This document shows positions 22,473-34,163 of a stretch of 35,554 bases of DNA, piece after piece. Under the pieces are notes generated by a model. It saw nothing but the letters and a program-made list of their open reading frames with translations. It searched no databases and was not told the DNA's origin. Position 1 is the stretch's first letter. Each line of letters opens with the position of its first letter. The stretch comes from a virus. The position numbers and the translations under genes are program-made. Location of the stretch: positions 1 to 35,554 of the IMG/VR virus record IMGVR_UViG_3300027730_000079. One strand, given 5' to 3'.

Positions 22473-22703
22473 TTAGGAAAGGTGTTGTAAGAATAGTAAG
22501 GCTGTGTGAGAGAGTTCTGATATACCATACGGACTAACTTTACCGCACTTAACTAACATAGAACCTCGACTAACCATAAATCCTACTATAGGACCATGTG
22601 ATGTAGTATCTCCGATATGAAATTTTTTATCATCGGATAATCTCCAAACCCCACTTATCTGCTCTTCTGAATTTAGAGCTATAATCCTCCATATTGAGTT
22701 CAT
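22473..22703 (-). CDS. Small hypothetical protein behind a class-1 promoter
   Basis: A 76-residue soluble protein, beta-rich (IWRIIALN, SGVWRLSDDKKFHIG, PIVGFMVSRG), with one Cys. The ATG comes 4 nt after TATCTTTAG of a class-1 promoter, so the message may be leaderless. It is the only class-1 gene to the left of the tRNA cluster. It ends 34 nt before the acidic late protein. No family recognised. Confidence 0.6.
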   Translation of the reverse strand: MNSIWRIIALNSEEQISGVWRLSDDKKFHIGDTTSHGPIVGFMVSRGSMLVKCGKVSPYGISELSHTALLFLQHLS

Positions 22704-22705
22704 AA

Positions 22706-22738
22706 GCTAAAGATACGAATAAGACATGAAAGAAGCAA
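22706..22738 (-). promoter_or_regulatory. Class-1 promoter (P22706)
   Basis: TTG, 20-nt spacer, TATCTTTAGC. Serves the gene at 22473-22703; leaderless type. Confidence 0.7.
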
Positions 22739-22741
22739 GTA

Positions 22742-22894
22742 TTAACCCTGACCTTTAGAGACTTTACAATAATTTTTTGAGTTTTTATTTTTAGACATTT
22801 TAGTCTTAGCATGAATGCCTTTTCGAGTAACCTTCGGTTTTGCAAACTTAACAATAACGGAGGTGGTTTTAGTTTTCCCTTTTGCTGGTGCCAT
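22742..22894 (-). CDS. Small lysine-rich basic protein (50 aa)
   Basis: A 50-residue protein with about 30% Lys/Arg and a C-terminal block KGIHAKTKMSKNKNSKNYCK followed by VSKGQG. I associate the pattern K-G-(I/V)-H-(A/S)-K-x-K...SKNY...GQG with small basic proteins of T4-like phages. It probably binds nucleic acid or the ribosome; the function is unknown. It starts 7 nt after a class-2-like motif that lies inside an inverted repeat, and it follows the tRNA cluster. Confidence 0.65.
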   Translation of the reverse strand: MAPAKGKTKTTSVIVKFAKPKVTRKGIHAKTKMSKNKNSKNYCKVSKGQG

Positions 22895-22933
22895 AATTAC
22901 TGATAAATATGACCCACTAATCTTTCAGTAATT
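22895..22933. repeat. Perfect 9-bp inverted repeat enclosing a late-type motif
   Basis: AATTACTGA and TCAGTAATT are separated by 21 nt; the class-2-like motif TATTTATCA lies at 22901-22909 and overlaps one arm. Could be an operator or an RNA hairpin in the leader of the 50-residue basic protein. Confidence 0.5.
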
Positions 22934-23031
22934 GCTTCCCCGGTGTTTTAGTTTTAACAAGCTTCCTAAAAATCGAAATCGAGATGATTAGATTACAGAT
23001 CTGTAAACTTATACAAAGTATTAACATATTG

Positions 23032-23106
23032 TATTCCCGATTGGATTCGAACCAATGACCTGCTCATTAGAAGTGAGCTGCTCTATCCTGCTGAGCTACG
23101 AGAACA
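23032..23106 (-). tRNA. tRNA-Arg (anticodon TCT)
   Basis: A 75-nt cloverleaf. A 7-bp acceptor stem (two wobble pairs), a GTAGCTCAG D arm, an anticodon stem GCTCA/TGAGC with loop CTTCTAA, and a T arm with TTCGAAT. CCA is not encoded. It reads AGA, a codon common in this A/T-rich genome. Confidence 0.93.
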
Positions 23107-23114
23107 TATAAAGG

Positions 23115-23199
23115 CGGAAGATGTAGGATTCGAACCTACGGACCTATTACAGTCAATGCTTTTCAAGAGCACCGCGATCGACCACTCTGCCAATCTTCC
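23115..23199 (-). tRNA. tRNA-Ser (anticodon TGA)
   Basis: An 85-nt type II tRNA: acceptor GGAAGAT/ATCTTCC with discriminator G, anticodon stem GTGCT/AGCAT with loop CTTGAAA, a long variable arm, and T loop TTCGAAT. It reads UCA. Confidence 0.93.
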
Positions 23200-23273
23200 A
23201 TAGTTGCAGGACATCGCTTAACCTACTGTAGATGTTCCTCCTACATTGTTCCCTTGCGGTACTACGATTTTTG

Positions 23274-23420
23274 TAATCAGGGTAGGACTCGAACCTACAA
23301 GTCTACAGCACTCCTGCTCTGAATCCCTTTTTGTTTAACGTGAGGATTGGATACACCTCATTGCAGTTTTTTAGTGTCTATCACGACTGGGTAACGCCCC
23401 AATCCTTCCACCACCTGACT
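23274..23420 (-). ncRNA. Over-long tRNA-like element A (147 nt, Leu-like ends)
   Basis: The ends form a good tRNA: acceptor AGTCAGG/CCTGATT with discriminator A, and a perfect T arm (GTAGG-TTCGAGT-CCTAC). The 5' part (TGGTGGAA...TGATAGACAC) resembles a tRNA-Leu D arm. The interior is ~60 nt too long and I cannot draw a valid anticodon arm. It contains a 7-bp hairpin (GATTGGG/CCCAGTC) within the D region, an alternative pairing GGATTGG/CCAATCC, and a small AGCA-GGAG-TGCT hairpin. It could be an interrupted tRNA-Leu, a decayed one, or a stable RNA like T4 RNA C/D. Confidence 0.55.
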
Positions 23421-23545
23421 ATATTTGAATCTTTTTAAAACTCCCAAGAGATTCTCAACTTGGCTGACCAACGATTCAGAGGATGAGTGAGCAGTTCTTA
23501 TGGTATGCCCTCCTGAGCTTCGATCCCGTGTACTTAGGGCCGTTG

Positions 23546-23620
23546 TTGCGGGAGTTGGAATCGAACCAACCTAGTCCAAGCTTATGAGACTTGTGTGTGC
23601 ACCAACTCATCTTCCCCGCA
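23546..23620 (-). tRNA. tRNA with CAT anticodon (Met or Ile2)
   Basis: A 75-nt tRNA: acceptor TGCGGGG/TCCCGCA with discriminator A, anticodon stem CAAGT/GCTTG with loop CTCATAA, and a perfect T arm (GTTGG-TTCGATT-CCAAC). The D arm is less regular. Sequence alone does not separate elongator Met, initiator Met, or lysidine-modified Ile. Confidence 0.88.
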
Positions 23621-23625
23621 ATTTG

Positions 23626-23757
23626 TAGTTAGAGCCGGACTCGAACCGGATACCGTTCATGACGGATTAGACAACCTTACGACGCAACGACCACCCATTA
23701 CAGGTGACCGCTAATCTTGGGGACTCGGGTACCATCCCTCATTACGTCCATCTAACT
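23626..23757 (-). ncRNA. Over-long tRNA-like element B (132 nt, type II-like)
   Basis: Acceptor AGTTAGA/TCTAACT is perfect with discriminator A. The T arm has 4 of 5 pairs around TTCGAGT. A variable-arm hairpin CCGT-CATGA-ACGG lies just before it, as in Ser, Leu or Tyr tRNAs. A candidate anticodon stem GATTAG/CTAATC encloses ~40 nt instead of 7, and that insert has its own 7-bp hairpin (GGTCACC/GGTGGTC). TACCCGAG is reminiscent of tRNA-Tyr D arms. It may be an intron-containing tRNA or a tRNA-derived RNA. Confidence 0.5.
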
Positions 23758-23784
23758 ATATTACACTTGTTCGCTACCTAACAT

Positions 23785-23793
23785 ATATAAATA
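23785..23793 (-). promoter_or_regulatory. Class-2-like motif TATTTATAT upstream of the tRNA cluster
   Basis: One mismatch to TATTTATAA, 28 nt before the first tRNA-like element. Confidence 0.35.
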
Positions 23794-23837
23794 TAAGAAC
23801 TAATATACTTTCTCACAAACTCTCCCTAAGGAGAACT

Positions 23838-24161
23838 TTACTTTTTATCAAACATTGCATTCACAAAGATCAAACCTACAAAGATCCCTCCGGCAAAGGC
23901 TAAAGCCAATCCCAAGGCACCGGGGAGGAATACCCCGCCCCCTATCAAGATCAAGCCCAAACCTGCATTAATCAAGTTAGCCTTTTTGAAGTCTTTTTTC
24001 TGACCCTCAGACTCTATCAAGTCTAATACTCTATTCCCTCCGATGATCATCCCAGATACTAACAAGCACCCGATGAACAAGAACATGAACCCTTTAACTA
24101 AGGCAGTGAATGCGATAACGGCGATAAAGCCTGCGATGATGATGTTGTTTTTCTTTTTCAT
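23838..24161 (-). CDS. Small integral membrane protein
   Basis: A 107-residue protein with hydrophobic segments at ~6-22, 25-43, 63-80 and 82-100, so probably four transmembrane helices. A charged loop in the middle (ESEGQKKDFKK) and Lys at both ends suggest both termini lie in the cytoplasm. The Gly-rich last two helices (GLILIGGGVFLPGALGLALA) pack tightly. The ATG follows the ~20-nt leader of a class-1 promoter. A role in the host envelope (superinfection exclusion or holin-like) is possible but unproven. Confidence 0.65.
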   Translation of the reverse strand: MKKKNNIIIAGFIAVIAFTALVKGFMFLFIGCLLVSGMIIGGNRVLDLIESEGQKKDFKKANLINAGLGLILIGGGVFLPGALGLALAFAGGIFVGLIFVNAMFDKK

Positions 24162-24183
24162 AACCTATTTCTTTTTATTATAA

Positions 24184-24216
24184 TCTAAAGATACGAACTT
24201 TTCTGATAGGAGGCAA
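24184..24216 (-). promoter_or_regulatory. Class-1 promoter (P24184)
   Basis: TTG, 20 nt, TATCTTTAGA. Serves the membrane protein at 23838-24161; leader type ending in AGGTTATG. Confidence 0.75.
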
Positions 24217-24220
24217 GCCT

Positions 24221-24373
24221 TTAATTCAAATCTTTTTTATTATTTTTCCTATTATACACCTTCCCAGAAGGCTTTACACGACTTATCATATTCCGGCGGA
24301 TGATCTGGCGGACCTGTCCCCGGGAGAGTCCTTTCAGGACATCCTCTGAATTATTTACTGTACCTCGGTTCAT
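24221..24373 (-). CDS. Small basic protein (50 aa)
   Basis: A 50-residue, highly basic protein. Residues ~15-35 (LSRGQVRQIIRRNMISRV) look like a short helix pair, and the C-terminal KVYNRKNNKKDLN tail is unstructured. It could bind nucleic acid. Its stop codon sits 4 nt before the next promoter, and it has its own class-1 promoter with a 20-nt leader. No family recognised. Confidence 0.6.
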   Translation of the reverse strand: MNRGTVNNSEDVLKGLSRGQVRQIIRRNMISRVKPSGKVYNRKNNKKDLN

Positions 24374-24395
24374 AATCTTATATCTTATAACTATA

Positions 24396-24428
24396 CCTAA
24401 AGATGTGAAGAATAATTCAAATAAACAA
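24396..24428 (-). promoter_or_regulatory. Class-1 promoter variant (P24396)
   Basis: TTG, 20 nt, CATCTTTAGG (T to C at the first -7 base). Serves the 50-residue basic protein at 24221-24373. Confidence 0.6.
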
Positions 24429-24435
24429 CTGTTTT

Positions 24436-25065
24436 CTAGTAGTACATAGGTTCTCCGTTAAAGAAATCCTTGCCGTAGTACAACACAGCATCTATGGCCT
24501 GATCTAAAGGGACCTCAAAGAATTCCCTTGTAGACCCTTGAAGGGTGCCTTTCCTTTTATCTTCAAAATGACGATGAACTAAGTTCTCAACCTTATAATC
24601 ATTTAAGACCGGGAGTGCAAATTTGAGATCCCATTCCGAGACTGTACCCGCACCATTGATTGCATGTATCCGATCCACGGGATTGACAGCCTTGCCGATC
24701 TTGCATATCCCCGGATACTCGGTATTAGTTAAGACATAGACATACTTACCCTTAGACTGGGAAAGATCGTAGTCCTGTAGTGCCTGTTTATCTTTGGCAT
24801 ACAAGTATATCCAAGTCATAGAACTAGTCTCATTGTCTACTGATATCAATACACTACTCATATACTCACAGTCGATGAAATCCAAGACTTTCTCAATACT
24901 GATTTTCCTGTATTTGTAGACCAGGTCCTGGTAATTCTTAGACCATCTAAGGATATTACCCTCCGGTACATCCTGGGAGAGAAGGGTTTTAGGATAATAG
25001 ACTTCCACATACCCTTTTTCCTCCATCTCCATCAAAGACTCAATGTCAATTGATTTTCTTTTCAT
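24436..25065 (-). CDS. GIY-YIG family protein, T5orf172/MUG113-like
   Basis: A 209-residue protein. Residues 1-100 form an unassigned N-terminal domain. Residues ~106-200 match the T5orf172/MUG113 branch of GIY-YIG nucleases: GKYVYVLTN, CKIGKAVNPVDRI and, further on, VENLVHRHFEDKR with GSTREFFEV. The Y, G-K and R-I positions of the active site are kept, and the Glu in VENLVH is a candidate catalytic acid. Such proteins cut DNA in phage defence, homing or host takeover. The ATG follows TATCTTTAGG by 2 nt, so it is likely leaderless. Confidence 0.75.
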   Translation of the reverse strand: MKRKSIDIESLMEMEEKGYVEVYYPKTLLSQDVPEGNILRWSKNYQDLVYKYRKISIEKVLDFIDCEYMSSVLISVDNETSSMTWIYLYAKDKQALQDYDLSQSKGKYVYVLTNTEYPGICKIGKAVNPVDRIHAINGAGTVSEWDLKFALPVLNDYKVENLVHRHFEDKRKGTLQGSTREFFEVPLDQAIDAVLYYGKDFFNGEPMYY

Positions 25066-25067
25066 AA

Positions 25068-25100
25068 CCTAAAGATACGAACATATATTGATATAACTAC
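25068..25100 (-). promoter_or_regulatory. Class-1 promoter, weak -33 (P25068)
   Basis: TATCTTTAGG is perfect, but the expected TTG position reads GTA. Precedes the GIY-YIG gene at 24436-25065. Confidence 0.5.
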
Positions 25101-25440
25101 CTAAAGACTAAAATTTTTCGGAAAAAATTCCTCGGGTGTCTTAGGGCCAGCCGTAAAGTCACTTTTTGGAAACTTAGGCAAGGGTCTTGGGTGGTACAAG
25201 GTATAAATATATACCCTTATAGTAAGATTTCTTCGGAAAGGATGATTGCAGCTTTAGCATAGTAGGCCGTAGATAACTACTATAGTGATATTAAGTACAC
25301 TTGTATTGAGTATGTGCTAGCTACCTATACCGTACTACATACGTACGTACTATGGTGGTGATAAAACCGTAGCACCGATTCTAGTAAACCGTAGACACAG
25401 AAAGAGCCGACTGTAGCCGACTCCCTCCTATCCTGTTCTT
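25101..25440. other. Gene-poor stretch with CCGTAG motifs
   Basis: About 340 nt without a supported gene. CCGTAG occurs at 25268, 25367 and 25389, with near matches CCGTAC at 25330 and CTGTAG at 25411. The palindrome GTACGTAC lies near 25343. The motif is the reverse complement of CTACGG in the array at 31.07 kb. Confidence 0.5.
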
Positions 25441-25446
25441 ATTCCC

Positions 25447-25698
25447 TTAGATGGGGTAAGCCATCATAGTCCCTGCATCATACCATTCAAAGTACCATCC
25501 GCAGGCTTCAATGAATCTATCTAGTTCTGGCTTTACTCCGAAGGTATCTACCCACTTCTCACTCCAGTAATTGAATAGGCCTGGAGTATCTTCTGCTGAG
25601 ATCCAGATCCCACCTTTCCCTATTCCAAATTCTTCTGTTGTTCCCACTACTCTAACTCCTGCATGCTCTAGAGCTGTCATTACATCTTCCTGTGTCAT
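25447..25698 (-). CDS. Small hypothetical protein
   Basis: An 83-residue soluble protein (MTQEDVMTALEHAGVRVVGT...) with a GIGKGGIWIS strand and an aromatic C-terminal half (WYFEWYDAG). I chose the ATG at 25698 because the leader before it matches the untranslated leader of other class-1 genes. An in-frame ATG 7 codons upstream (25719) sits at the predicted transcription start and would add MEKEIKV. No family recognised. Confidence 0.6.
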   Translation of the reverse strand: MTQEDVMTALEHAGVRVVGTTEEFGIGKGGIWISAEDTPGLFNYWSEKWVDTFGVKPELDRFIEACGWYFEWYDAGTMMAYPI

Positions 25699-25720
25699 AA
25701 CCTTTATTTCTTTTTCCATA

Positions 25721-25753
25721 CCTAAAGATACGAAGAAGCCTCCGAAGAGGCAA
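25721..25753 (-). promoter_or_regulatory. Class-1 promoter (P25721)
   Basis: TTG, 20 nt, TATCTTTAGG; the spacer holds CCTC-TTCG-GAGG. Serves the gene at 25447-25698. Confidence 0.85.
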
Positions 25754-25761
25754 CTTCTTTT

Positions 25762-26106
25762 TTAATCTTCTTTCTCCTCTAAAACATCCAAAAGAGCTTC
25801 TAACGTATCAACAGCTGACCGTACTAAGAAGTCTTCATCAATTGGAACTGACTCGATTTCAATTTGGTTATTATAACTAAGGCTCAATTCAATATCATCC
25901 TTATCAACAACATCCTCCCAATCTCTCTCCGAAAGCATTTGTCGGAAAGTAGTTAGTAGAGTATCTTTATCGATATTAGGTTTAGGAGATTCTTCCTGCA
26001 TCTCTGCATTCAAATCTGTTAGAAGTTTGATTACATCTTCTCTTGAGAATAAAGAAGGGAAACTGTTTGATACTTTCTCGATTGTGTTTTGAATTTGTTT
26101 TTGCAT
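25762..26106 (-). CDS. Small acidic helical protein
   Basis: A 114-residue acidic protein, helical at both ends (NTIEKVSNSFPSLF...; RSAVDTLEALLDVLEEKED), with no Cys and no membrane segment. The start is clear: the leader here has ATA where sister genes have an upstream ATG. That argues that the leader is normally untranslated. No family recognised. Confidence 0.6.
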   Translation of the reverse strand: MQKQIQNTIEKVSNSFPSLFSREDVIKLLTDLNAEMQEESPKPNIDKDTLLTTFRQMLSERDWEDVVDKDDIELSLSYNNQIEIESVPIDEDFLVRSAVDTLEALLDVLEEKED

Positions 26107-26129
26107 AACCTTTATTTGTTTTTTCTATA

Positions 26130-26162
26130 CCTAAAGATACGAACTTTCCTCTAAAGAGGCAA
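26130..26162 (-). promoter_or_regulatory. Class-1 promoter (P26130)
   Basis: TTG, 20 nt, TATCTTTAGG; spacer palindrome CCTCTTTAGAGG. Serves the gene at 25762-26106; 23-nt leader. Confidence 0.85.
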
Positions 26163-26165
26163 CTG

Positions 26166-26339
26166 TTATTTTCCTAACATGTATTCAAGCTCCTGAATAG
26201 TGGCTCTGATAGTCCCTATGTAAAGTCCTGCTTCATAAGCATGGCTAATCTCTTTACCTTTCCTGTCACCCTCTTCAAGCATATAGCTTAGAGTGTTCTT
26301 GATAGCTGTTAATTGATCTTTGATTTCTTTTTTTGTCAT
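26166..26339 (-). CDS. Small helical protein (57 aa)
   Basis: A 57-residue protein, two predicted amphipathic helices (KKEIKDQLTAIKNTLSYML and AGLYIGTIRATIQELEYML) joined by a charged turn. It has its own class-1 promoter and leader and ends 3 nt before the next class-1 promoter. No family recognised. Confidence 0.6.
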   Translation of the reverse strand: MTKKEIKDQLTAIKNTLSYMLEEGDRKGKEISHAYEAGLYIGTIRATIQELEYMLGK

Positions 26340-26356
26340 AACCTTTTTTTATTATA

Positions 26357-26389
26357 CCTAAAGATACGAACTATACTCTCAGCAGGCAA
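26357..26389 (-). promoter_or_regulatory. Class-1 promoter (P26357)
   Basis: TTG, 20 nt, TATCTTTAGG. Serves the 57-residue gene at 26166-26339. The -33 TTG lies in the last codons of the upstream gene, whose TGA stop is in the spacer. Confidence 0.8.
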
Positions 26390-26567
26390 CATATTCCTCA
26401 AGAAAGACTAAACTTTTTTCCACTTGAGTTCTAATGAATAATTTGATCTCAACCTCACTGAATCCTTCTTCGATTAGTTCAATGATGTTTGCCTGGAGTG
26501 CCATGGGTATATCCATAGGACATACTCTCTTCATCTCTCTCATTTTTAGATCTGTCATTTGTTTCAT
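26379..26567 (-). CDS. Small hypothetical protein (62 aa)
   Basis: A 62-residue protein (MKQMTDLKMREMKRVCPMDI...) with two Cys and a helical C-terminal part (EVEIKLFIRTQVEKSLVF). Its last residues (YVAC) and stop are encoded inside the next class-1 promoter. The ATG 1 nt after TATCTTTAGGT suggests a leaderless message; a second ATG three codons in is the alternative. No family recognised. Confidence 0.6.
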   Translation of the reverse strand: MKQMTDLKMREMKRVCPMDIPMALQANIIELIEEGFSEVEIKLFIRTQVEKSLVFLEEYVAC

Positions 26568-26568
26568 A

Positions 26569-26601
26569 CCTAAAGATACGAACTAGCCGCTTAGGAGGCA
26601 A
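26569..26601 (-). promoter_or_regulatory. Class-1 promoter (P26569)
   Basis: TTG, 20 nt, TATCTTTAGG. Serves the gene at 26379-26567; leaderless type. Confidence 0.8.
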
Positions 26602-26609
26602 CTGTTATT

Positions 26610-26711
26610 TTACCCCACAGTCGCCCTGCAGTGAGAGCATTTGACAATCCTCAGACCGGAAGCCGGGTGAGAGACTGCAACATAGGTCTTAAGATGCTTA
26701 CATGTGCTCAT
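26610..26711 (-). CDS. Zinc-ribbon-like micro-protein (33 aa)
   Basis: A 33-residue protein with two Cys/His pairs: C4-K-H6 near the start and C25-S-H-C28 (VKCSHC) near the end. The central HPASGLRIVKC resembles a minimal zinc ribbon hairpin. It starts 4 nt after the stop of the gene at 26716-26901, so it is likely co-translated with it. It is short enough to be chance, but the Cys/His layout and spacing support it. Confidence 0.5.
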   Translation of the reverse strand: MSTCKHLKTYVAVSHPASGLRIVKCSHCRATVG

Positions 26712-26715
26712 AAGC

Positions 26716-26901
26716 CTAGCCCTGATCTAAACTTTCTCCTGAAATAATGAATTGAACGAAACCATCTTCTTCTTGTATGTGACACTCCTCAGACACAATT
26801 TCCATCTGTTCCCCATACCCATACTCAACCAACCCTACAAACTCAATCTCTGATTCTGGATTGAATTCGTTTAGCCTTTCGATTAGATCTTTTATCTTCA
26901 T
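26716..26901 (-). CDS. Small acidic hypothetical protein
   Basis: A 61-residue acidic protein beginning MKIKDLIERLNEFNPESEIEF. The opening has the helix-then-strand look of small phage proteins that start KIKDLIExLxxxxPDxEV. I start it at 26901. Longer reading would translate the promoter itself (…FVSLG). The ATG 1 nt after TATCTTTAGGT implies a leaderless mRNA. Function unknown. Confidence 0.65.
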   Translation of the reverse strand: MKIKDLIERLNEFNPESEIEFVGLVEYGYGEQMEIVSEECHIQEEDGFVQFIISGESLDQG

Positions 26902-26902
26902 A

Positions 26903-26935
26903 CCTAAAGATACGAATAATAAAGAAGGGGACCAA
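26903..26935 (-). promoter_or_regulatory. Class-1 promoter (P26903)
   Basis: TTG, 20 nt, TATCTTTAGG. Serves 26716-26901 and probably the micro-protein at 26610-26711. Confidence 0.8.
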
Positions 26936-26972
26936 CTAGGCCCCCAACTTTTATGAAAAATAAACAAAGGTT

Positions 26973-27704
26973 TTAAACTAATTGACCAATCAAGTATTTG
27001 GTCTGAACTCCCTCTAACACACCGCCGACTACTAATTCCTTATCATAATTTAGGCAAGTATACTCAACGGTCACTTTCTTCCCTGAAGCATTCTTATCAA
27101 TACATTTCAATTTCACCACTCTGTAGACTGTATCGTATCTCCCTCTCCCATATTCAATATTTCGCATCTCATCAAACGTTACCTCTTCCCCGCTATAGAA
27201 ACTCTCCAATACTTTTGCTCTCTTCTCTTCTGCTTCTTCCCTATTCATCTTATCGATCTCACGACTCAAAGCATAGTCTTCAGTATGCAACACATCTGAC
27301 TGTTCTTTATAGATTGCAAGCAAGCCATCCTCTACAAAGATTTGATCAATACAAGACTGCATCCCTCCCTTATAAAGCACCTCAGCAACCTTGCCGTTGA
27401 AGATTAATCTCCTATATTCAAACTCAGTATCGACATTAGTAGAGTAGGTATTCAAATAGTGATTAGAATTCCCTACCCAGCTTCTTGAATTGATTGAAAG
27501 GATCTCTTTCCTATCAACATTGAAGTATAGAGTATCTCCGTAAGAGATTGATAAGCTAACCTCCGGAAAGTCTACCAACACCTCTTTAAGTATTTCCTCT
27601 GCTCTCTTAACAAGCAATTCGTTTTTCTGAGCTTCTAAGATCTGTATCTCCTGAAGGATTACATTTCTTCTGTCAATTAGTGTCTGTTTGATGATGTTTG
27701 TCAT
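26973..27704 (-). CDS. Hypothetical protein, 243 aa
   Basis: A soluble protein with a helical N-terminal part (NVILQEIQILEAQKNELLVK) then a beta-rich body. The middle (SREIDKMNREEAEEKRAKVL) is a charged helix. The last ~60 residues form a strand-rich domain (DTVYRVVKLKCI, KKVTVEYTCLNY). It is the longest gene of the accessory block. I choose ATG 27704 (MTNIIKQ...). An in-frame upstream ATG at 27725 would add MEKEIKV, as in two sister genes. No family recognised. Confidence 0.65.
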   Translation of the reverse strand: MTNIIKQTLIDRRNVILQEIQILEAQKNELLVKRAEEILKEVLVDFPEVSLSISYGDTLYFNVDRKEILSINSRSWVGNSNHYLNTYSTNVDTEFEYRRLIFNGKVAEVLYKGGMQSCIDQIFVEDGLLAIYKEQSDVLHTEDYALSREIDKMNREEAEEKRAKVLESFYSGEEVTFDEMRNIEYGRGRYDTVYRVVKLKCIDKNASGKKVTVEYTCLNYDKELVVGGVLEGVQTKYLIGQLV

Positions 27705-27726
27705 AACCTTTATTTCTTTTTCCATA

Positions 27727-27759
27727 CCTAAAGATACGAACCTTCCTCCGAGGAGGCAA
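27727..27759 (-). promoter_or_regulatory. Class-1 promoter (P27727)
   Basis: TTG, 20 nt, TATCTTTAGG; spacer hairpin CCTC-CTCG-GAGG. Serves the gene at 26973-27704. Confidence 0.85.
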
Positions 27760-27771
27760 CTTTTATTTTGA

Positions 27772-27837
27772 TTATTTTGTCACTACATACACTGTGAACC
27801 CAGTCCACAATGTTACTATCACTATTGTTATTACCAT
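27772..27837 (-). CDS. Membrane micro-protein (21 aa)
   Basis: A 21-residue peptide that is almost entirely one hydrophobic helix (MVITIVIVTLWTGFTVYVV, then TK). Its ATG shares a base with the stop of the 35-residue gene before it (TAATG), so translation should be coupled. Co-transcribed small membrane peptides are known as holin or antiholin pairs in phages; here this is only a possibility. Confidence 0.4.
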   Translation of the reverse strand: MVITIVIVTLWTGFTVYVVTK

Positions 27838-27944
27838 TATTTTCCTGCTAAACTATACAACGTTACTATTAATGTAGCTGCTGCCATGATGATGCCGCTT
27901 AACAATACTACTCCGATTACTGTGTCTTTTAATACTTGTTTCAT
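27837..27944 (-). CDS. Membrane micro-protein (35 aa)
   Basis: A 35-residue peptide. After MKQVLKDT, one transmembrane helix spans ~residues 9-31 (VIGVVLLSGIIMAAATLIVT). It has a full class-1 promoter and a leader ending in AAAAGTTATG, which is strong support for expression. It sits directly before the 21-residue membrane peptide with a 1-nt overlap. Function unknown; a small membrane effector is likely. Confidence 0.6.
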   Translation of the reverse strand: MKQVLKDTVIGVVLLSGIIMAAATLIVTLYSLAGK

Positions 27945-27968
27945 AACTTTTATTTCTTTTTTATTATA

Positions 27969-28001
27969 CCTAAAGATACGAACTTACTTTCGATAAGGCA
28001 A
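27969..28001 (-). promoter_or_regulatory. Class-1 promoter (P27969)
   Basis: TTG, 20 nt, TATCTTTAGG. Serves the micro-protein pair. The TAG stop of the upstream gene is the TAG of TATCTTTAG. Confidence 0.85.
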
Positions 28002-28161
28002 CTGTTTTTTCTAAAAACTTTTCCCCTTCATTAAATGCTCTTTCAATCTCCTCCTTGTGCATTGCTTTGGCTTGTTGTATAATCTCTGGCCATTTTAAAG
28101 AATCTTTTAAGTGTATATTATTTAATATAAACTCCAAGCTACTTTGTTTATTGTTGCTCAT
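27970..28161 (-). CDS. Small hypothetical protein (63 aa)
   Basis: A 63-residue helical protein (SSLEFILNNIHLKDSLKWPE, then AKAMHKEEIERAFNEGEKFL). Its last ten residues (VALSKVSSYL) are encoded by the downstream class-1 promoter and its stop is within the -7 box. That may mean the original gene was extended into, or trimmed by, the promoter. It overlaps the gene upstream by 4 nt (ATGA). Confidence 0.6.
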   Translation of the reverse strand: MSNNKQSSLEFILNNIHLKDSLKWPEIIQQAKAMHKEEIERAFNEGEKFLEKTVALSKVSSYL

Positions 28162-28367
28162 TTGTTACCTTCTTTTATTTTATTAAGTACATAGTTTGCA
28201 CCACCTATCCATACTTCATTGTATTCTTCAGAGTGATATCCATTCTTATCTATCTCCTCATCACTTGGTAGTTCGATGTACTCTAAATTTTCCATGTCAT
28301 CTAACGTAATAAAACTCTGTTTAGTCGTTAGAAATTTTCTGATTTGTTCTTCTGTGTATAGTTTCAT
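28158..28367 (-). CDS. Small acidic hypothetical protein (69 aa)
   Basis: A 69-residue acidic protein (MKLYTEEQIRKFLTTKQSFI...), with an N-terminal helix and a Tyr/Glu-rich C-terminal part ending in YVLNKIKEGNK. First gene of a two-gene unit behind P28384, with leader ending AAAGGTTATG. The next gene starts within its stop. No family recognised. Confidence 0.6.
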   Translation of the reverse strand: MKLYTEEQIRKFLTTKQSFITLDDMENLEYIELPSDEEIDKNGYHSEEYNEVWIGGANYVLNKIKEGNK

Positions 28368-28383
28368 AACCTTTTTTCCTATA

Positions 28384-28416
28384 CCTAAAGATACGAACTT
28401 ACTTTCGATAAGGCAA
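28384..28416 (-). promoter_or_regulatory. Class-1 promoter (P28384)
   Basis: TTG, 20 nt, TATCTTTAGG; identical in spacer to P27969, so one is a recent copy of the other. Serves 28158-28367 and 27970-28161. Confidence 0.85.
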
Positions 28417-28417
28417 C

Positions 28418-28663
28418 TTAAATTTCATCTTCTTCAAACAAATCATCCATTCCCATTTCCTTCGCTATCTTCCTAGCTGCTTCCAACTGCTCAGGCGTAA
28501 TATCTGTAGTGTGGCCAAGATTAACCAACTTCTCTTCAACTTCTGCCATCTGCTGCTCTGTAGGAGAATCCCAGAATGAATCATTAGTAACATAAAGATC
28601 TCCGTATAACTCTGAAGCAATATCAGCTAGGATGTTTCTCAATTCAAGTAATTCTGCTATCAT
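28418..28663 (-). CDS. Small acidic hypothetical protein
   Basis: An 81-residue acidic protein (MIAELLELRNILADIASELY...). It is helical, with a predicted second helix TPEQLEAARKIAKEMGM and an acidic tail (DDLFEEDEI). I start it at 28663, after the leader. An in-frame ATG at 28684 would add MEKETKV. Longer reading only translates the promoter. No family recognised. Confidence 0.6.
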   Translation of the reverse strand: MIAELLELRNILADIASELYGDLYVTNDSFWDSPTEQQMAEVEEKLVNLGHTTDITPEQLEAARKIAKEMGMDDLFEEDEI

Positions 28664-28685
28664 AACCTTTGTTTCTTTTTCCATA

Positions 28686-28718
28686 CCTAAAGATACGAAC
28701 CTTCCTCTCATGAGGCAA
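28686..28718 (-). promoter_or_regulatory. Class-1 promoter (P28686)
   Basis: TTG, 20 nt, TATCTTTAGG; spacer CCTC-ATGA-GAGG, whose loop TGA is the stop codon of the gene at 28708-28917. Serves 28418-28663. Confidence 0.85.
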
Positions 28719-28917
28719 CTTTAATTCGTTTTTTTAGATCTTCAACCGACCCTTCAAGGCCAGGCGGATCCAACCTGAGCATACACTCCCGGAAGGACCC
28801 GGTGAATAGAACCTGGCAGTAATTCTTAGGCATGGCATCCACGGCCGCTATTGCGAACATCCGATTGCCATAATGGTTAGTATAATCGTAGTAGTTAAAT
28901 TCCTTTTCTTTTCTCAT
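28708..28917 (-). CDS. Small hypothetical protein (69 aa)
   Basis: A 69-residue protein with an aromatic N-terminus (FNYYDYTNHYGNRMFA) and a C-terminal helix (SVEDLKKRIKVAS). Its start lies 23 nt inside the end of the upstream gene, in another frame, so it is translated from the same message. Higher GC than its neighbours suggests a separate origin. No family recognised. Confidence 0.55.
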   Translation of the reverse strand: MRKEKEFNYYDYTNHYGNRMFAIAAVDAMPKNYCQVLFTGSFRECMLRLDPPGLEGSVEDLKKRIKVAS

Positions 28918-29227
28918 TAATAATTGCCTCCATCTCCCCTATAAAATCAAACGCATTAACCTTTGACCCGATATTCCATCTTGTTAATTCATTTTCAGTA
29001 TACCCCCGGTCATAAGTCTTCCAGTCGTATAAGGTATAAAGATTACCCCTGAATTCAATCACCCATTCCATCTGAGTCTTATCATCACCAGAGGGTTTAT
29101 CAAACGTTGGTTCTCCTAACGCATTAATCAAGTCCCGGTAAGTAACATTATCCAAATAACCTGACAAGCTAGTCCCAGTAGTCTGCGGTGCTCTGCCATT
29201 TTTAAAAACCTTTATTTTCATTTCCAT
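28895..29227 (-). CDS. Conserved phage protein of unknown function (TGTSLxGY type)
   Basis: A 110-residue protein. The stretch QTTGTSLSGYLDNVTYRDLI, then ALGEPTF, EWVIEF and LYDWKTYDRG, with RWNIGS near the end, matches a small family I know from many phages, without known function. Start at 29227 (MEMKIKVFKNG). Here the second ATG of the leader is replaced by TTT, so the upstream ATG must be used. This shows that the 'MExxIKV' leader can be translated. The promoter box is TATCTTTAGC. Confidence 0.7.
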   Translation of the reverse strand: MEMKIKVFKNGRAPQTTGTSLSGYLDNVTYRDLINALGEPTFDKPSGDDKTQMEWVIEFRGNLYTLYDWKTYDRGYTENELTRWNIGSKVNAFDFIGEMEAIINEKRKGI

Positions 29228-29229
29228 AA

Positions 29230-29262
29230 GCTAAAGATACGAAGAAAAGAGGAGGGAACCAA
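29230..29262 (-). promoter_or_regulatory. Class-1 promoter (P29230)
   Basis: TTG, 20 nt, TATCTTTAGC. Serves the genes at 28895-29227 and 28708-28917. Confidence 0.8.
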
Positions 29263-29280
29263 CCCTCCCCTAAACTTTTT

Positions 29281-29574
29281 TTAATTTTCTATTCTTTCTA
29301 ACCCTAATAATTCTTCTGCAGCTTTCTTATCAGCATATGCAATTGCATCTTCCGGATCGATAAGCTCCTCCCCTGATTGCAAAATAGGTTCTAAATTAAA
29401 TCTGCTGCAATCTTCTAATAAACCTAAAACAGCCAACCAATCATAATCGGTCAAATTAGCTTCTGCGTAATAAATTCCATTTGCTGCATCGTCTACCGTA
29501 ATGCTGAAATTTAATTTCTCATAAGCTGCTAAATTAGCAAAACTGTCTTCGAATGCAAATATTATTTTTTTCAT
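29281..29574 (-). CDS. Small acidic hypothetical protein
   Basis: A 97-residue acidic protein (MKKIIFAFEDSFANLAAYEK...), with alternating strand and helix, and a C-terminal helix (AIAYADKKAAEELLGLERIE). I start it at 29574; earlier codons would translate the promoter. The ATG follows TATCTTTAGGT directly, so the mRNA is probably leaderless. No family recognised. Confidence 0.6.
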   Translation of the reverse strand: MKKIIFAFEDSFANLAAYEKLNFSITVDDAANGIYYAEANLTDYDWLAVLGLLEDCSRFNLEPILQSGEELIDPEDAIAYADKKAAEELLGLERIEN

Positions 29575-29575
29575 A

Positions 29576-29608
29576 CCTAAAGATACGAATAAGCTGCCGG
29601 GGCGGCAA
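29576..29608 (-). promoter_or_regulatory. Class-1 promoter (P29576)
   Basis: TTG, 20 nt, TATCTTTAGG; spacer GC-rich hairpin (GCCG-CCC-CGGC). Serves 29281-29574. Confidence 0.85.
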
Positions 29609-29641
29609 CTAAAAGTTTTTTTTATTTTTCTCAACAGACAG

Positions 29642-29674
29642 TTGGTCCTTTGAAGGACCGTTCGTATCTTTAGG
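29642..29674 (+). promoter_or_regulatory. Class-1 promoter on the plus strand (for small RNA A)
   Basis: TTG, 20 nt, TATCTTTAGG; the spacer contains the palindrome GGTCCTTTGAAGGACC. It points away from all protein genes and is followed by the conserved RNA block. Confidence 0.8.
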
Positions 29675-29748
29675 ATGTCGGAAAGATGGAGTACGAAGGG
29701 CGGGGTAGAAACCTGAAGAGATCAGACGGAGTTTGTTCTTTTTTTTTT
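29675..29748 (+). ncRNA. Putative small RNA A
   Basis: About 75 nt after a plus-strand class-1 promoter, related along its length to small RNA B. Conserved blocks are GTCGGAA(A/G)GAT, AGTACGAAGGGCGG, GAAGAGATCAGACG and AGTTTGTTCT. Between copies there is a 5-nt length change, so the conservation is not that of a reading frame. The 3' end is a hairpin (AAGAGATCAGAC / GTTTGTTCTTTT, one T-T mismatch, triloop GGA) running into a T tract. No protein family or known RNA recognised. Confidence 0.7.
29716..29748 (+). terminator. Intrinsic-terminator-like 3' hairpin of small RNA A
   Basis: Twelve paired positions with one mismatch and a 3-nt loop, then a run of T. It would end a plus-strand transcript of ~75 nt. 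Confidence 0.5.
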
Positions 29749-29760
29749 AAGAACCTAACT

Positions 29761-29788
29761 AAAAAAAACCTCCCGTGTTACTGGAAGG
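29761..29788 (-). terminator. Rho-independent terminator after the wHTH gene
   Basis: On the minus strand CCTTCC-AGTAACAC-GGGAGG followed by eight T. It ends the transcript of the gene at 29808-30104 just before small RNA A. Confidence 0.75.
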
Positions 29789-29807
29789 TCCTTTAAGAAA
29801 GTGAAGA

Positions 29808-30104
29808 TTAATAATACAAGTAGTCTGGATGGTCTTGATACTCAGCCCATTTAGGGTGAAGATGCCAGAAAGCCTTCTGAAGATAAATAAGTTGATAAAC
29901 TGGAGCTCCATAAGTCTCCGTTGCTTGGATAGATACTACCCCTTTCTTAACTAAGCTGCTCAATACCCCTCTAACGATAGAGGTTGAGATGCCAGTCTCT
30001 TTAGACAGATCCTTTGCATCAACGTCTGAGAAGCCGGGCTCGGCATAGAGATTGAAGATTAACGAATCTAATACCTGCTGTTCTAATTCTGTGAAGTTTG
30101 TCAT
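29808..30104 (-). CDS. Winged-helix DNA-binding protein
   Basis: A 98-residue protein (MTNFTELEQQVLDSLIFNLY...). The helix-turn-helix runs through VDAKDLSKETGISTSIVRGV, followed by LSSLVKKGVVSI and a beta wing (TYGAPVYQLIYL). This matches small phage winged-helix proteins of the same opening. It probably regulates phage transcription. I start it at ATG 30104; the upstream in-frame ATG at 30125 would add MEMEIKV. A strong terminator follows. Confidence 0.75.
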   Translation of the reverse strand: MTNFTELEQQVLDSLIFNLYAEPGFSDVDAKDLSKETGISTSIVRGVLSSLVKKGVVSIQATETYGAPVYQLIYLQKAFWHLHPKWAEYQDHPDYLYY

Positions 30105-30126
30105 AACCTTTATTTCCATTTCCATA

Positions 30127-30159
30127 CCTAAAGATACGAAGAAGCCTCTCCGGAGGCAA
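30127..30159 (-). promoter_or_regulatory. Class-1 promoter (P30127)
   Basis: TTG, 20 nt, TATCTTTAGG; spacer CCTC-CGGA-GAGG. Serves the winged-helix gene. Confidence 0.85.
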
Positions 30160-30165
30160 CTTTAT

Positions 30166-30351
30166 TTAGTACCAATTTTGATTTATTATCACATGATTAT
30201 ATCTGATATTCTCATGCTTGTCCCTATTCCACACCTTAACCTCACAGTAGGTATTATTCTTACCGTATTGGTATCTGACTACTTCATACATGTCAGCAGT
30301 CTCCTTCAGATGCCTCCACCTGGCCCTGCCTATCCTATTGTATTTTTCCAT
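30166..30351 (-). CDS. Small basic hypothetical protein (61 aa)
   Basis: A 61-residue protein rich in Arg, Tyr and Asn (MEKYNRIGRARWRHLKETAD...; YCEVKVWNRD), mixed helix and strands. It may bind nucleic acid. The ATG lies 2 nt after the variant -7 box TATCTTTAGGG, so leaderless. No family recognised. Confidence 0.55.
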   Translation of the reverse strand: MEKYNRIGRARWRHLKETADMYEVVRYQYGKNNTYCEVKVWNRDKHENIRYNHVIINQNWY

Positions 30352-30353
30352 AC

Positions 30354-30386
30354 CCTAAAGATAGGAAGAAGCTTCTGTGCAGGCAA
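30354..30386 (-). promoter_or_regulatory. Class-1 promoter variant (P30354)
   Basis: TTG, 20 nt, TATCTTTAGG, but TTCC instead of TTCG before the -7 box. Serves 30166-30351. Confidence 0.75.
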
Positions 30387-30420
30387 CAGAAATCTTTTTT
30401 ATTTTTTTTCCCTAAGACGG

Positions 30421-30453
30421 TTGGTCCCCTCAAGGATGGTTCGTATCTTTATG
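30421..30453 (+). promoter_or_regulatory. Class-1 promoter on the plus strand (for small RNA B)
   Basis: TTG, 20 nt, TATCTTTA followed by TG instead of GG. Directs transcription of small RNA B, opposite to all genes. Confidence 0.75.
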
Positions 30454-30523
30454 TTGTCGGAAGGATAGTATCTAGTACGAAGGGCGGCTGGCAAAGTTGA
30501 AGAGATCAGACGTAGTTTGTTCT
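30454..30523 (+). ncRNA. Putative small RNA B (paralogue of A)
   Basis: Shares with A the blocks GTCGGAAGGAT, AGTACGAAGGGCGG, GAAGAGATCAGACG and AGTTTGTTCT, with a 5-nt insertion after the first block. The 3' hairpin is kept (AGATCAGAC / GTTTGTTCT, loop GTA), but the T tract of A is missing, so the end is less certain; GAGGAGATTCCT follows. A start-to-stop reading frame is not conserved between the copies. It may also be covered by an antisense transcript from the minus promoter at 30558. Confidence 0.65.
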
Positions 30524-30557
30524 GAGGAGATTCCTGAAAAGAAAAAGGGGAACGGCT

Positions 30558-30590
30558 CCTAAAGATACGAACTTCCCTTCAATAAAGCAA
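30558..30590 (-). promoter_or_regulatory. Class-1 promoter without a gene (P30558)
   Basis: TTG, 20 nt, TATCTTTAGG. No ATG-started frame lies between it and the next promoter; its transcript would run antisense through small RNA B. Confidence 0.75.
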
Positions 30591-30872
30591 CTATAATTTT
30601 GAAATAATTTCCATGTGACGGGCTACCTGGTCTGGGGTCTGGTGCCCTAGGACTGCCGTACGCCCATCCAGGGCTTCCTCCCAGGCTCCTTCCTCAAAGG
30701 CCAGCCAATGGTCTTCCCCTGAATGCCAGGCGGCCACTTCTGCCGTTGTCTGCCCTTGGTCTGAATAAGTATGTTCCCCAAAGGCTACACTGAGGGTATA
30801 CCCGTTAGAGAATGTGATTTGAAATCCTGCATGGTCCTGTCTTGGGGCAGTTGAGAATACTTTCTTATGCAT
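30591..30872 (-). CDS. Conserved phage hypothetical protein (93 aa)
   Basis: A 93-residue protein: FQITFSNGYTLSVAFGEHTYSD, then TTAEVAAWHSGEDHWLAF, LDGRTAVLGHQTPDQVARHM. The (F/I)TF-NG-x-T-x-SVxFG opening is common in small phage and plasmid proteins of unknown function. Clearly higher GC than neighbours, a sign of transfer. The ATG lies 3 nt after TATCTTTAG, so leaderless. Its stop is immediately followed by P30558. Confidence 0.65.
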   Translation of the reverse strand: MHKKVFSTAPRQDHAGFQITFSNGYTLSVAFGEHTYSDQGQTTAEVAAWHSGEDHWLAFEEGAWEEALDGRTAVLGHQTPDQVARHMEIISKL

Positions 30873-30874
30873 GT

Positions 30875-30907
30875 ACTAAAGATACGAACCAAAGTTCGGT
30901 TAGGCAA
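30875..30907 (-). promoter_or_regulatory. Class-1 promoter (P30875)
   Basis: TTG, 20 nt, TATCTTTAGT; spacer holds CGAAC-TTTG-GTTCG running into the -7 region. Serves 30591-30872. Confidence 0.8.
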
Positions 30908-31067
30908 GGTATTTTTTTACTTTCAGACTATTTATTATAGAGGCAGGCTTTCACCCACCATCATTGCGATACCGGGAGTTACGACGATTGAAACCAGCTT
31001 CAAAAATGTACTAGAATGCTTTCAACAGCACAGCCCCCCTATTGCCTGGGTCAAATTTTTTTTTTGT

Positions 31068-31176
31068 CTACGGCTTGCTCCTACGGTCGGCTCTCTACGG
31101 TTCCCTAATGCTACGGCCTGCTCCTACAGTTGACTCCCTTACGGTTTACTATATGCTACGGTGGGCTCTGCTACGG
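31068..31176. repeat. Eight-unit CTACGG array
   Basis: CTACGG (or one-base variants CTACAG, TTACGG) starts at 31068, 31081, 31095, 31111, 31124, 31139, 31156 and 31171: intervals 13-17 nt, mean ~15. Units are separated by short C/T-rich spacers, several ending GCTC. Confidence 0.8.
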
Positions 31177-31232
31177 TTATCTTGCTCGATTCGATAAGAA
31201 ACCCCCCTAAAACACTTAATTTCTATAGAAAG

Positions 31233-31263
31233 TTGCTTTAAGGAGGCATTTATGCTATAATTC
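31233..31263 (+). promoter_or_regulatory. Possible plus-strand promoter, class-1-like
   Basis: TTG, exactly 20 nt, then TATAATTC instead of TATCTTTA; the spacer has AGGAGGC. It would transcribe the gene-free stretch rightwards. Confidence 0.35.
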
Positions 31264-31359
31264 TCTAAAATACCCAACTTACTTACTTTCTAGTCTTTCT
31301 ACACACCATTCTACATTCTTCTATAGTCTCCTATATTCCCTTCTATTATTTAATACACA

Positions 31360-31532
31360 CTACGGTTTTCCCATACACTTCCCATCTCCTTACATTCTTT
31401 ATTCTTTCATACAGTTTTAATATGTTTTCCTTATGTTTTCTTAGGGTCTACGGTACTCTCTACAGTCTTCTATACAGTTGGTACGTATGATAGACTCCCT
31501 ACGGTCGTCCCTACGTCTTTCTTATCCTACGG
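31360..31532. repeat. Dispersed CTACGG copies
   Basis: CTACGG at 31360, 31448, 31499 and 31527, CTACAG at 31460, CTACGT at 31511. Same motif as the regular array, with looser spacing. Confidence 0.6.
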
Positions 31533-31559
31533 TTATCTATATTCTATTCTATTCTTATT

Positions 31560-32075
31560 CTAATATACTAATGGGTCTTCTAATCTTTTCTCTCTCATAT
31601 ATCTTTCTACTCTATTATTATATTCTATATAGAAGTCTGAAGTATTATTTATCTCATCATTACTCCTCTTCTTCTCAAGGCAATTTTCTAGCAAAGTTTC
31701 CCAGATCATTTGTTTCACATCCAGATCTAAAAAGGGGTAGTTGCTTCTAAAGGCCGCTTGCTTAAATTCTTCCAGTCTCTTTAATTCTTCTTTGGTAAGT
31801 TCCTCCTCTACTTTCATTATGCTTACTCTTGCCTTTTTATAGATCTGGTCAATATTCTCTCTAATAGAATCATCTCTTAGACCTTTACTACGGCTTACGG
31901 CCCAGTATTCCTTCACACGTTTCTCCAAGCTCTTCTTCTGTTTCATCAAGTCGTTCTTAACGTCGTTAGGGTATTCAAAGTCCCCGTTCTCGATCTGCTT
32001 TTGAATAGAGTATTTAACCCCTAGTTTCTTATGCCTTGGGCCTCTTACCCAGTACTGAAATCTATTATAGCTCAT
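31560..32075 (-). CDS. Basic helical protein of unknown function (171 aa)
   Basis: A 171-residue, Lys/Arg-rich protein, mostly charged helices (KNDLMKQKKSLEKRVKEYWAV; KVEEELTKEELKRLEEFKQA). No membrane segment or enzyme motif. The ATG is 3 nt after TATCTTTAGG, so leaderless. It is the first gene left of the DUF932 gene and ends at the border of the gene-free stretch. No family recognised; a nucleic-acid-binding role is conceivable. Confidence 0.6.
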   Translation of the reverse strand: MSYNRFQYWVRGPRHKKLGVKYSIQKQIENGDFEYPNDVKNDLMKQKKSLEKRVKEYWAVSRSKGLRDDSIRENIDQIYKKARVSIMKVEEELTKEELKRLEEFKQAAFRSNYPFLDLDVKQMIWETLLENCLEKKRSNDEINNTSDFYIEYNNRVERYMREKRLEDPLVY

Positions 32076-32077
32076 TA

Positions 32078-32110
32078 CCTAAAGATACGAATAAAAAGGC
32101 GGGGAGACAA
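32078..32110 (-). promoter_or_regulatory. Class-1 promoter (P32078)
   Basis: TTG, 20 nt, TATCTTTAGG. Serves 31560-32075. Confidence 0.8.
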
Positions 32111-32129
32111 CTCCCCACCCTTGTTTTAT

Positions 32130-32915
32130 TTAGATATAAGATTCTGCTAACTGGTAAAGCTTCTCGTTCAATTCAATATCCCTATTGAAGTTTTTGATTG
32201 ATCTTGCAGTCTTATTTCTGCCTGTAGATGCTTTGTATTTAAAGCCTCCTCTAGACATTTTCTCCTGAATGATATTAAATACAACCCACAAATCATCCCC
32301 CTCATCCTCCTTACGGGTAGGTTTAAGAATCTCCTCCGGAGTTACTTCTGCTCCATTCTCACCAAATCTAATCCCTAGAGCAGCTAAAGCAAATTCAGCC
32401 TTCTGCTCTTCAGTCAAAGTTACTTCCCTAAACTTATTCAAAGTTTCAATAGTAACCGGAAGTTCTTCTACAAGACCCATAACCGTCTGCTTTAAAGCAT
32501 CAAAAGAGTATCCTTTATGTCTGATAGACATTGCACCGAATTCCTTAGTAGCGATCACTAATCCGTTAGTACAAACTAATCTAAATAAACCTGCCCGGAA
32601 TTGGAATGAAGATAAACCATCATGAGAGTTACTCAAAAGGATCTGAGGATAAACCACCTCACCGTCCTCTGATGCGATAACCACATTATCGTTTCTGAAG
32701 GTAATCAAATGCTTTTTATGATCTGCAGTGCCTTCCTTCTTAGAACGGACTTGCTTAGCATCCGTTACTCCCCATCCAAGTTTTGCCATATCTTCGATAA
32801 GGTCGATGGTTGGAACGTGAACGTACTTCCCAGATACATTAGCAGCTGAGGTTGTACTTACTGCTGCTGGAGCAGCTTTAGCGATCTGGTCGATGGTTAA
32901 AAATGTGTTTTTCAT
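32130..32915 (-). CDS. DUF932 family protein
   Basis: A 261-residue protein. Residues ~40-150 fit the DUF932 (phage/plasmid-related, TIGR03299-like) core: VPTIDLIEDMAKLGWGV near the start, KHLITFRNDN, PQILLSNSHDGLSSFQF and RAGLFRLVCTNGLVI. The family is common on phages and plasmids, without an established biochemical role. A replication or anti-defence function has been suggested only from context. The ATG follows a ~20-nt leader behind P32939. Confidence 0.8.
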   Translation of the reverse strand: MKNTFLTIDQIAKAAPAAVSTTSAANVSGKYVHVPTIDLIEDMAKLGWGVTDAKQVRSKKEGTADHKKHLITFRNDNVVIASEDGEVVYPQILLSNSHDGLSSFQFRAGLFRLVCTNGLVIATKEFGAMSIRHKGYSFDALKQTVMGLVEELPVTIETLNKFREVTLTEEQKAEFALAALGIRFGENGAEVTPEEILKPTRKEDEGDDLWVVFNIIQEKMSRGGFKYKASTGRNKTARSIKNFNRDIELNEKLYQLAESYI

Positions 32916-32938
32916 AACTTTTATTTCTTATATCTATA

Positions 32939-32971
32939 CCTAAAGATACGAAGAAGAAGGGGAGTAAGCAA
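32939..32971 (-). promoter_or_regulatory. Class-1 promoter (P32939)
   Basis: TTG, 20 nt, TATCTTTAGG. Serves the DUF932 gene; leader type. Confidence 0.8.
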
Positions 32972-33245: not shown

Positions 33246-34163
33246 TTATTGTCTTAAGGTTTTTTTGTTTCTGTAGTTAACGCTGGTAAACATGCCTGGG
33301 ATTAAGTCATGGCTAGTTGCTCTAATTGGATTGATATCCAAGCCTCCTCTTCTGGTATACAAGCAAGCAACCATAAGTTCGGTAGGATCATAAGCTTCCA
33401 TTAAGTGAATATAAATCATCTCGCAAATCTCCTCATGGAAATGAGATACCTGTCTGTGAGATACAATGTACTTAGCGATTGATTCATAATCCGGAACTAG
33501 TGTACCGTTCATGTGAATGTAAACATCACCCCAGTCCGGTTGATTAGTCACCCTGCAATTTGATCTTAGTAAGTTAGACTTAATCTTAGTCTCTACATTA
33601 AATTCAAGCTCTGAAGGATTGACTTTCAGCTGAGAGGAATCTGAATGGAAAGTATCAAATTCAACTTCATCCAAATTAACCAATCGTTCAAGATCAATAA
33701 AGTCTCCTCCGAATTCAAACTCGGGAGTAAGATCATTCAAATAGAACTTAACATTAACCTTACTATTTAAAGCTTCAGATAAATCCCTGGCAACAGTCTC
33801 TTGAACGTACTCACGGCACTCTTCTGCAGTCTGCCCGGCTTTAGTCATGTTAAATGAATTTAAGTAAAGCTTGATTGACTTTGACTCAACGTGTAAAGGA
33901 GAATCAGCACTGTAGTAGATTTTCATCATACCAGATACCGGAAGTCCTTTCTCAGTCAGAGCAGAAACTTCATAAGCATTCCAAACATCCCCTCCCACAA
34001 AAGGAAGTTGCTCTTCTTTAATTCCATAAGACTCTCGATTGAAATAACGAGGGATTGCTACTAGCAAGGAAGGATCATAAAGGTCGCTATAACCTTCCCC
34101 TCCTACTTTACCCAAATGTTTTGATGCTATTCTGATAACATCGGCTTGTAAATTATTTTCCAT
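33246..34163 (-). CDS. queF: NADPH-dependent 7-cyano-7-deazaguanine reductase (QueF), long form
   Basis: A 305-residue protein of the long, E. coli-type QueF form (~280). It would reduce preQ0 to preQ1 with NADPH. The QueF motif is at ~93-103 (ESKSIKLYLNSF). The catalytic region has SNCRVTNQPDWGD: nucleophile C203, general acid D210. FHEE supplies H243/E244, and YTRRGGLDINPIR is the C-terminal signature. All key residues are kept, so it should be active. In phages QueF can serve 7-deazaguanine DNA modification; partner genes are not in this window. Its start overlaps the nuclease-like gene upstream by 11 nt. Confidence 0.93.
   Translation of the reverse strand: MENNLQADVIRIASKHLGKVGGEGYSDLYDPSLLVAIPRYFNRESYGIKEEQLPFVGGDVWNAYEVSALTEKGLPVSGMMKIYYSADSPLHVESKSIKLYLNSFNMTKAGQTAEECREYVQETVARDLSEALNSKVNVKFYLNDLTPEFEFGGDFIDLERLVNLDEVEFDTFHSDSSQLKVNPSELEFNVETKIKSNLLRSNCRVTNQPDWGDVYIHMNGTLVPDYESIAKYIVSHRQVSHFHEEICEMIYIHLMEAYDPTELMVACLYTRRGGLDINPIRATSHDLIPGMFTSVNYRNKKTLRQ

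Follow-up and report, generated by a model that had tools for sequence, protein, structure and literature searches.

A putative small non-coding RNA gene kept as an old, diverged pair in related uncultured phages

A short plus-strand stretch of the uncultured virus record IMGVR_UViG_3300027730_000079 resembles a gene for a small RNA, preceded by a promoter of its own. We call it RNA B (30456..30522); it is paired with a second gene, RNA A (29677..29738, plus strand), upstream in the same window, by which we mean the whole 35,554-nucleotide stretch of DNA that was analysed. On the comparative evidence the two belong to a previously unrecorded family of phage small-RNA genes of about 65 nt (62-69 nt), and since related uncultured phages retain both genes it is very likely that the RNA is useful to them. 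We tentatively propose, as the best explanation at present but one to which we give somewhat less than even confidence, that this is a trans-acting phage RNA made from two genes, with invariant parts that are recognised by a conserved partner, a protein being the likeliest. The nearest cultured relatives of the window are Flavobacterium phages of the genus Immutovirus, with which it shares 40-46% amino acid identity in the baseplate wedge protein, the primase and a DUF932 protein, and the window comes from a large phage whose host is probably a member of the Bacteroidota.

A and B match far beyond chance over approximately 105 nt, with 79% identity and an E-value of 2e-22, which, together with the recurrence of the pair in related phages, supports the original prediction of B as a small-RNA gene that is a diverged copy of A. 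The span first assigned to B (30421-30523) includes the promoter; RNA B proper, which is of the long B-type form, begins at 30456, as placed from the position of the promoter box, and runs for about 67 nt to the end of its 3' hairpin, the predicted 3' end. RNA A, recognised by its match to B, measures 62 nt to the end of its 3' hairpin and scores 91.8 bits with model R1, for which A was itself a training sequence. The features that had been read from the letters, namely four kept blocks, the kept arms of the 3' hairpin, a 5-nt insertion in B (GTATC), a loop between the hairpin arms of GTA in B for GGA in A and the missing T tract of B, were all found to be correct. In A a run of ten T (29739-29748, plus strand) directly follows the hairpin and is a likely terminator; a consensus terminator scan did not list it, the stem being weak. 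The conserved block AGTACGAAGGGCGG of B (30474..30487, plus strand) occurs exactly twice in the window, the other occurrence being in A at 29690, and a search of both strands of the window with up to three mismatches returned no third site.

Both genes are preceded by the same promoter elements, and the equal distance between them that had been noted in A and B was confirmed. The promoter of B (30421..30451, plus strand) has a -33-type TTG at 30421-30423 and an extended -7 box, TTCGTATCTTTA, at 30440-30451, and that of A (29642..29672, plus strand) has TTG with the TTCGTATCTTTA box at 29661-29672. There are 21 exact copies of TTCGTATCTTTA in the window, nearly always with TTG upstream; 19 lie on the minus strand, which is also the strand of the clear genes, where nearly all precede genes, and the only two on the plus strand are those of A and B. 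The element fits the Flavobacterium -7 consensus TAnnTTTG, which sits at -12 to -5 (PMC9723704), so that in each gene +1 can be placed at the G of GTCGGAA (A, 29677; B, 30456). In every copy the conserved block begins at this predicted +1, the gap between box and +1 is fixed at 4 nt and conservation ends at the 3' hairpin. Judged from sequence, A and B would each be transcribed from a promoter of their own, as is expected of a phage-encoded small non-coding RNA, with the ends predicted here. From 22700 to 32950 the minus strand carries a row of small genes that have near-identical sigma-A-type promoters; their start codons fall at or just past the inferred +1, and a repeated leader resembling GGTATGGAAAAAGAAATAAAGGTTATG is often present.

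Scanning the viral collection by pattern located the RNA family in six further uncultured viral records (L001, L002, L003, L008, L009 and L010/L011). With the exception of L002, which holds a single B-type copy on a contig stretch that stops 0.3 kb beyond it, each has one A-type and one B-type copy, with A upstream of B by 0.8-1.5 kb, and the pair has the same order and lies on the strand opposite to the genes. Because L009 and L010/L011 are nearly identical at the locus, we count about six independent records including the window. Known copies, which were also the training set of the covariance model, scored 75-92 bits, and every other sequence scored 16 bits or less; over whole records there were two copies in L001, two in L003 and two in L009 together with one chance match. 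A looser viral pattern gave 17 extra matches, none of them a real copy by the model, and four matches from a pattern scan of the genomes of 84,980 species were set aside for their low model scores and lack of likeness outside the pattern. Searches of the phage (50,697 records) and plasmid collections returned nothing beyond chance fragments, none of 40 primase-related records had a copy (most of those contigs end before the locus), and the neighbouring winged-helix protein returned no matches as a search query. In Rfam 15 no family rose above its gathering threshold, the window giving tRNAs only, and a relaxed search of the A/B region, with E up to 10, gave chance matches only.

These copies also allow a coding origin of the similarity between A and B, which would have undone the original prediction, to be dismissed, since no reading frame is open in all of them, no frame is conserved, as for a small non-coding RNA, and the two types differ by indels of 2, 3, 5 and 8 nt, most of which are not triplets. 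A small leaderless reading frame (ATG TCG GAA ...) is open in the B-type copies of L002, L008 and L009, but the remaining copies have stop codons in it and, with non-triplet indels and no common frame, we consider such a gene highly improbable.

The pair is old, because A-type copies from different phages are 79-92% identical where A and B within a phage are 71-79% identical, and because its order is fixed in phages whose primases are 73-98% identical, which does not describe a recent, unselected duplication. Selection on the RNA is well supported, since it is conserved next to promoter spacers and downstream sequence that have diverged (for A, the spacers have almost nothing in common between the window and L008), and as the pair is kept in five other records the claim that both copies are under selection holds. 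Mean column identity across eleven aligned copies is 80%, and among ten distinct copies 40 of the 59 ungapped columns do not vary at all. AGTACGAAGGGCGG, originally put forward as the best candidate for the functional core, is invariant in nine of the ten distinct copies, the exception having one A to G change, but it cannot be the sole core, as GTCGGAA..GAT and TGAAGARATC..ACG.AG match its invariance. When the copies were grouped, three of the A-type formed a supported group (97/94), and the B-type, which comprise long and short forms, formed no single supported group. One A-type copy, L1_A, has a B-like second hairpin (H2), which suggests gene conversion.

We infer that the RNA folds into three small hairpins, H1, H2 and H3, joined by invariant purine-rich linkers. 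In B, H1 (30457..30480, plus strand) would have a UCG/CGA stem, GAA (30460-30462) opposite AGUA (30474-30477) and an apical stem GGAU/AUCU; H2 (30485..30499, plus strand) would be CGGCU-GGCAA-AGUUG and H3 (30507..30519, plus strand) CAGAC-GUA-GUUUG. The pairs of H2 (alignment columns 33-36/46-49) can form in all eleven aligned rows, including one that is exchanged from C-G to G-C between the types, and those of H3 vary between G-U, G-C and A-U, with one A.G mismatch in four rows. Taking H2 and H3 together, 96% of cells are paired, compared with 18-43% in slid controls, and their covariation score, which draws on a single fully compensated pair and a small number of independent lineages, was reached by 4 of 500 shuffles. 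The H1 stem is UCG/CGR across copies and carries a variable cap, AGAUGG in A and GAU in short B; in long B the cap is a 4-bp stem, RGAU/AUCU, exactly atop the GAA/AGUA loop, and the 5-nt insertion of B would be part of this stem. GAA/AGUA on a 3-bp stem is found in all ten copies, against 0.3-3.7% per copy in shuffles, although these positions are invariant and cannot covary, and the motif was noticed post hoc. The arrangement resembles the sarcin-ricin (bulged-G, loop E) motif, with GAA opposite AGUA beside a Watson-Crick stem and the bulged G and A-A positions of the prototype (PMC8450098); here it is read from sequence alone, and the motif is a building block of many RNAs and does not define an RNA family (PMC8450098). 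In L003 B the three-hairpin fold is also the one of minimum energy, as it is in window A once two extra pairs are added, and several other copies have different minimum-energy folds under an energy model that gives non-canonical pairs no bonus; folding energies were no better than those of shuffles (z -1 to +1.2). We thus regard the fold as plausible, not proven, since other copies prefer other folds and the energies are not below those of shuffles.

We propose that B and A would act as small non-coding RNAs in trans, made from a host-type promoter like those of the phage's other genes but in the opposite direction, and that the three short hairpins would expose two purine-rich stretches that do not vary, AGGG and AAGARAU. 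A conserved partner, for which a host or phage protein is the likeliest candidate, may bind these stretches, and in the infected cell the RNA would be a decoy, scaffold or cofactor. The two copies would probably act mainly to raise dosage, the variable apical stem and 3' end of B being a minor difference. The partner is something we infer from structure: A and B do not differ in their unpaired stretches, nor do phages whose primases are 73-98% identical, which would suit one conserved partner. The suggestion that A and B have separate targets finds no support, since their linkers are the same. In a search for targets within the phage no complementary sequence was found beyond chance: against phage mRNA 5' ends no pairing exceeded that of shuffles, only B's own antisense standing out, and the invariant stretches, compared with all phage sequence, did not pair clearly better than shuffles after self-matches were removed. 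A bolder form of the proposal, which we consider unlikely, is that the RNA uses its sarcin-ricin-type loop, along with the invariant linkers, to capture a conserved component of the machinery of host translation or transcription, so that the pair would represent a new, two-copy family of protein-targeting RNAs. Mimicry of the promoter, to which AAAGAU..UACGAA is a split complement, was rejected, as the promoters are changed in L002 and L003 and the RNA has no matching change.

A regulatory RNA that acts by base pairing, with its invariant purine-rich stretches annealing to pyrimidine-rich host mRNA starts or to a conserved host RNA, like GibS and FopS of Bacteroides, is possible but rather doubtful. 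Much of the RNA is weakly folded, and its size, sigma-A-type promoter and paralogous copies resemble FopS. The published account (PMC11697453) describes FopS/GibS as short RNAs of Bacteroidota with several paralogous copies, canonical sigma-A-type promoters, an R1 seed/41-nt motif, RbpB binding and binding to susC mRNA start regions, and reports a FopS sequence in a phage. The same account gives 14 chromosomal copies, as opposed to two per phage genome here, where there is also no Rfam match. Set against base pairing are the lack of phage targets beyond chance and an invariance across divergent phages that is unusual for seeds facing changing mRNA targets. A protein partner is favoured because the unpaired stretches are kept where caps, promoter spacers and 3' flanks have changed, and because no pairing partner within the phage stood out.

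Two further explanations concern the DNA around the genes, and both seem improbable to us. In the window, L001, L003, L008, L009 and L010/L011, which are all the genomes with flanking sequence, B points at a cluster of TAC[GA]GTT repeats 490-640 nt away in a strongly pyrimidine-rich non-coding region (YTACGGTTNNCT; window 31069-31538, L001 7269-7718, L003 5793-5899, L009 223-369), which is iteron-like and a possible replication origin, and Immutovirus has an analogous region of ACGGGT repeats (L141, approximately 10300-10950). B, which has no T tract, might then prime or regulate replication there, with a promoter on the opposite strand (GTTG ... TTCGTATCTTTA, 30560..30591, minus strand, no start codon close behind) giving a transcript from about 30555 that would be antisense to B, as in ColE1 plasmids. 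However, A is the same RNA, has a T tract and lies farther from the repeats; in the window and L001 a protein gene separates B from the repeats; the origin role of the repeats is itself putative; and the Immutovirus stretch searched (20 kb, 56-76 kb) holds no copy of the RNA. The antisense promoter is present in the window and L001 but absent in L003, L008 and L009, so the overlapping antisense promoter next to the origin of a ColE1-type RNA I/RNA II system is not a conserved feature. The conserved sequence could instead be a DNA element just downstream of the promoter, a protein-binding or recombination site with no RNA, which would be in keeping with a folding that is not especially stable and with the inverted repeat that the promoter's TTCGTA makes with the TACGAA of the block; yet the block begins at the predicted +1 and has paired exchanges in H2, and in L002 and L003 the promoter reads TATATTAA or TATATTTA with no matching change in the block.

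Several other features of the region were observed. A non-coding block at 30918-31060 of the window ends in a nine-T run and is kept in L001, and in L003, L008 and L009 a different non-coding block is conserved upstream of B; these are possibly further RNAs. A phage-encoded ECF-type sigma factor (Pfam) adjoins the repeat region in L136 (9368-9904, plus strand) and L139 (7691-8248, plus strand), and the window has a different gene in this place (31560-32075). At 33246-34163 the window carries a gene for a QueF-type 7-cyano-7-deazaguanine reductase, a queuosine-pathway gene in a phage.

Phage-borne non-coding RNAs of approximately 50-90 nt include PreS of lambda, VpdS of VP882 and AgvB of Sp5 (PMC12197685), but these belong to other host phyla and mostly have known RNA targets, whereas the A/B family has no Rfam match and no target was found for it. 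The non-coding RNAs of large Bacteroidota phages have hardly been studied, and the A/B RNAs add a family that annotation tools miss. To our knowledge, most Bacteroidota hosts of such phages lack the RNA chaperone Hfq. A compact RNA that is present twice per genome and has invariant unpaired segments would provide a concrete probe of how these phages act on their hosts at the level of RNA.
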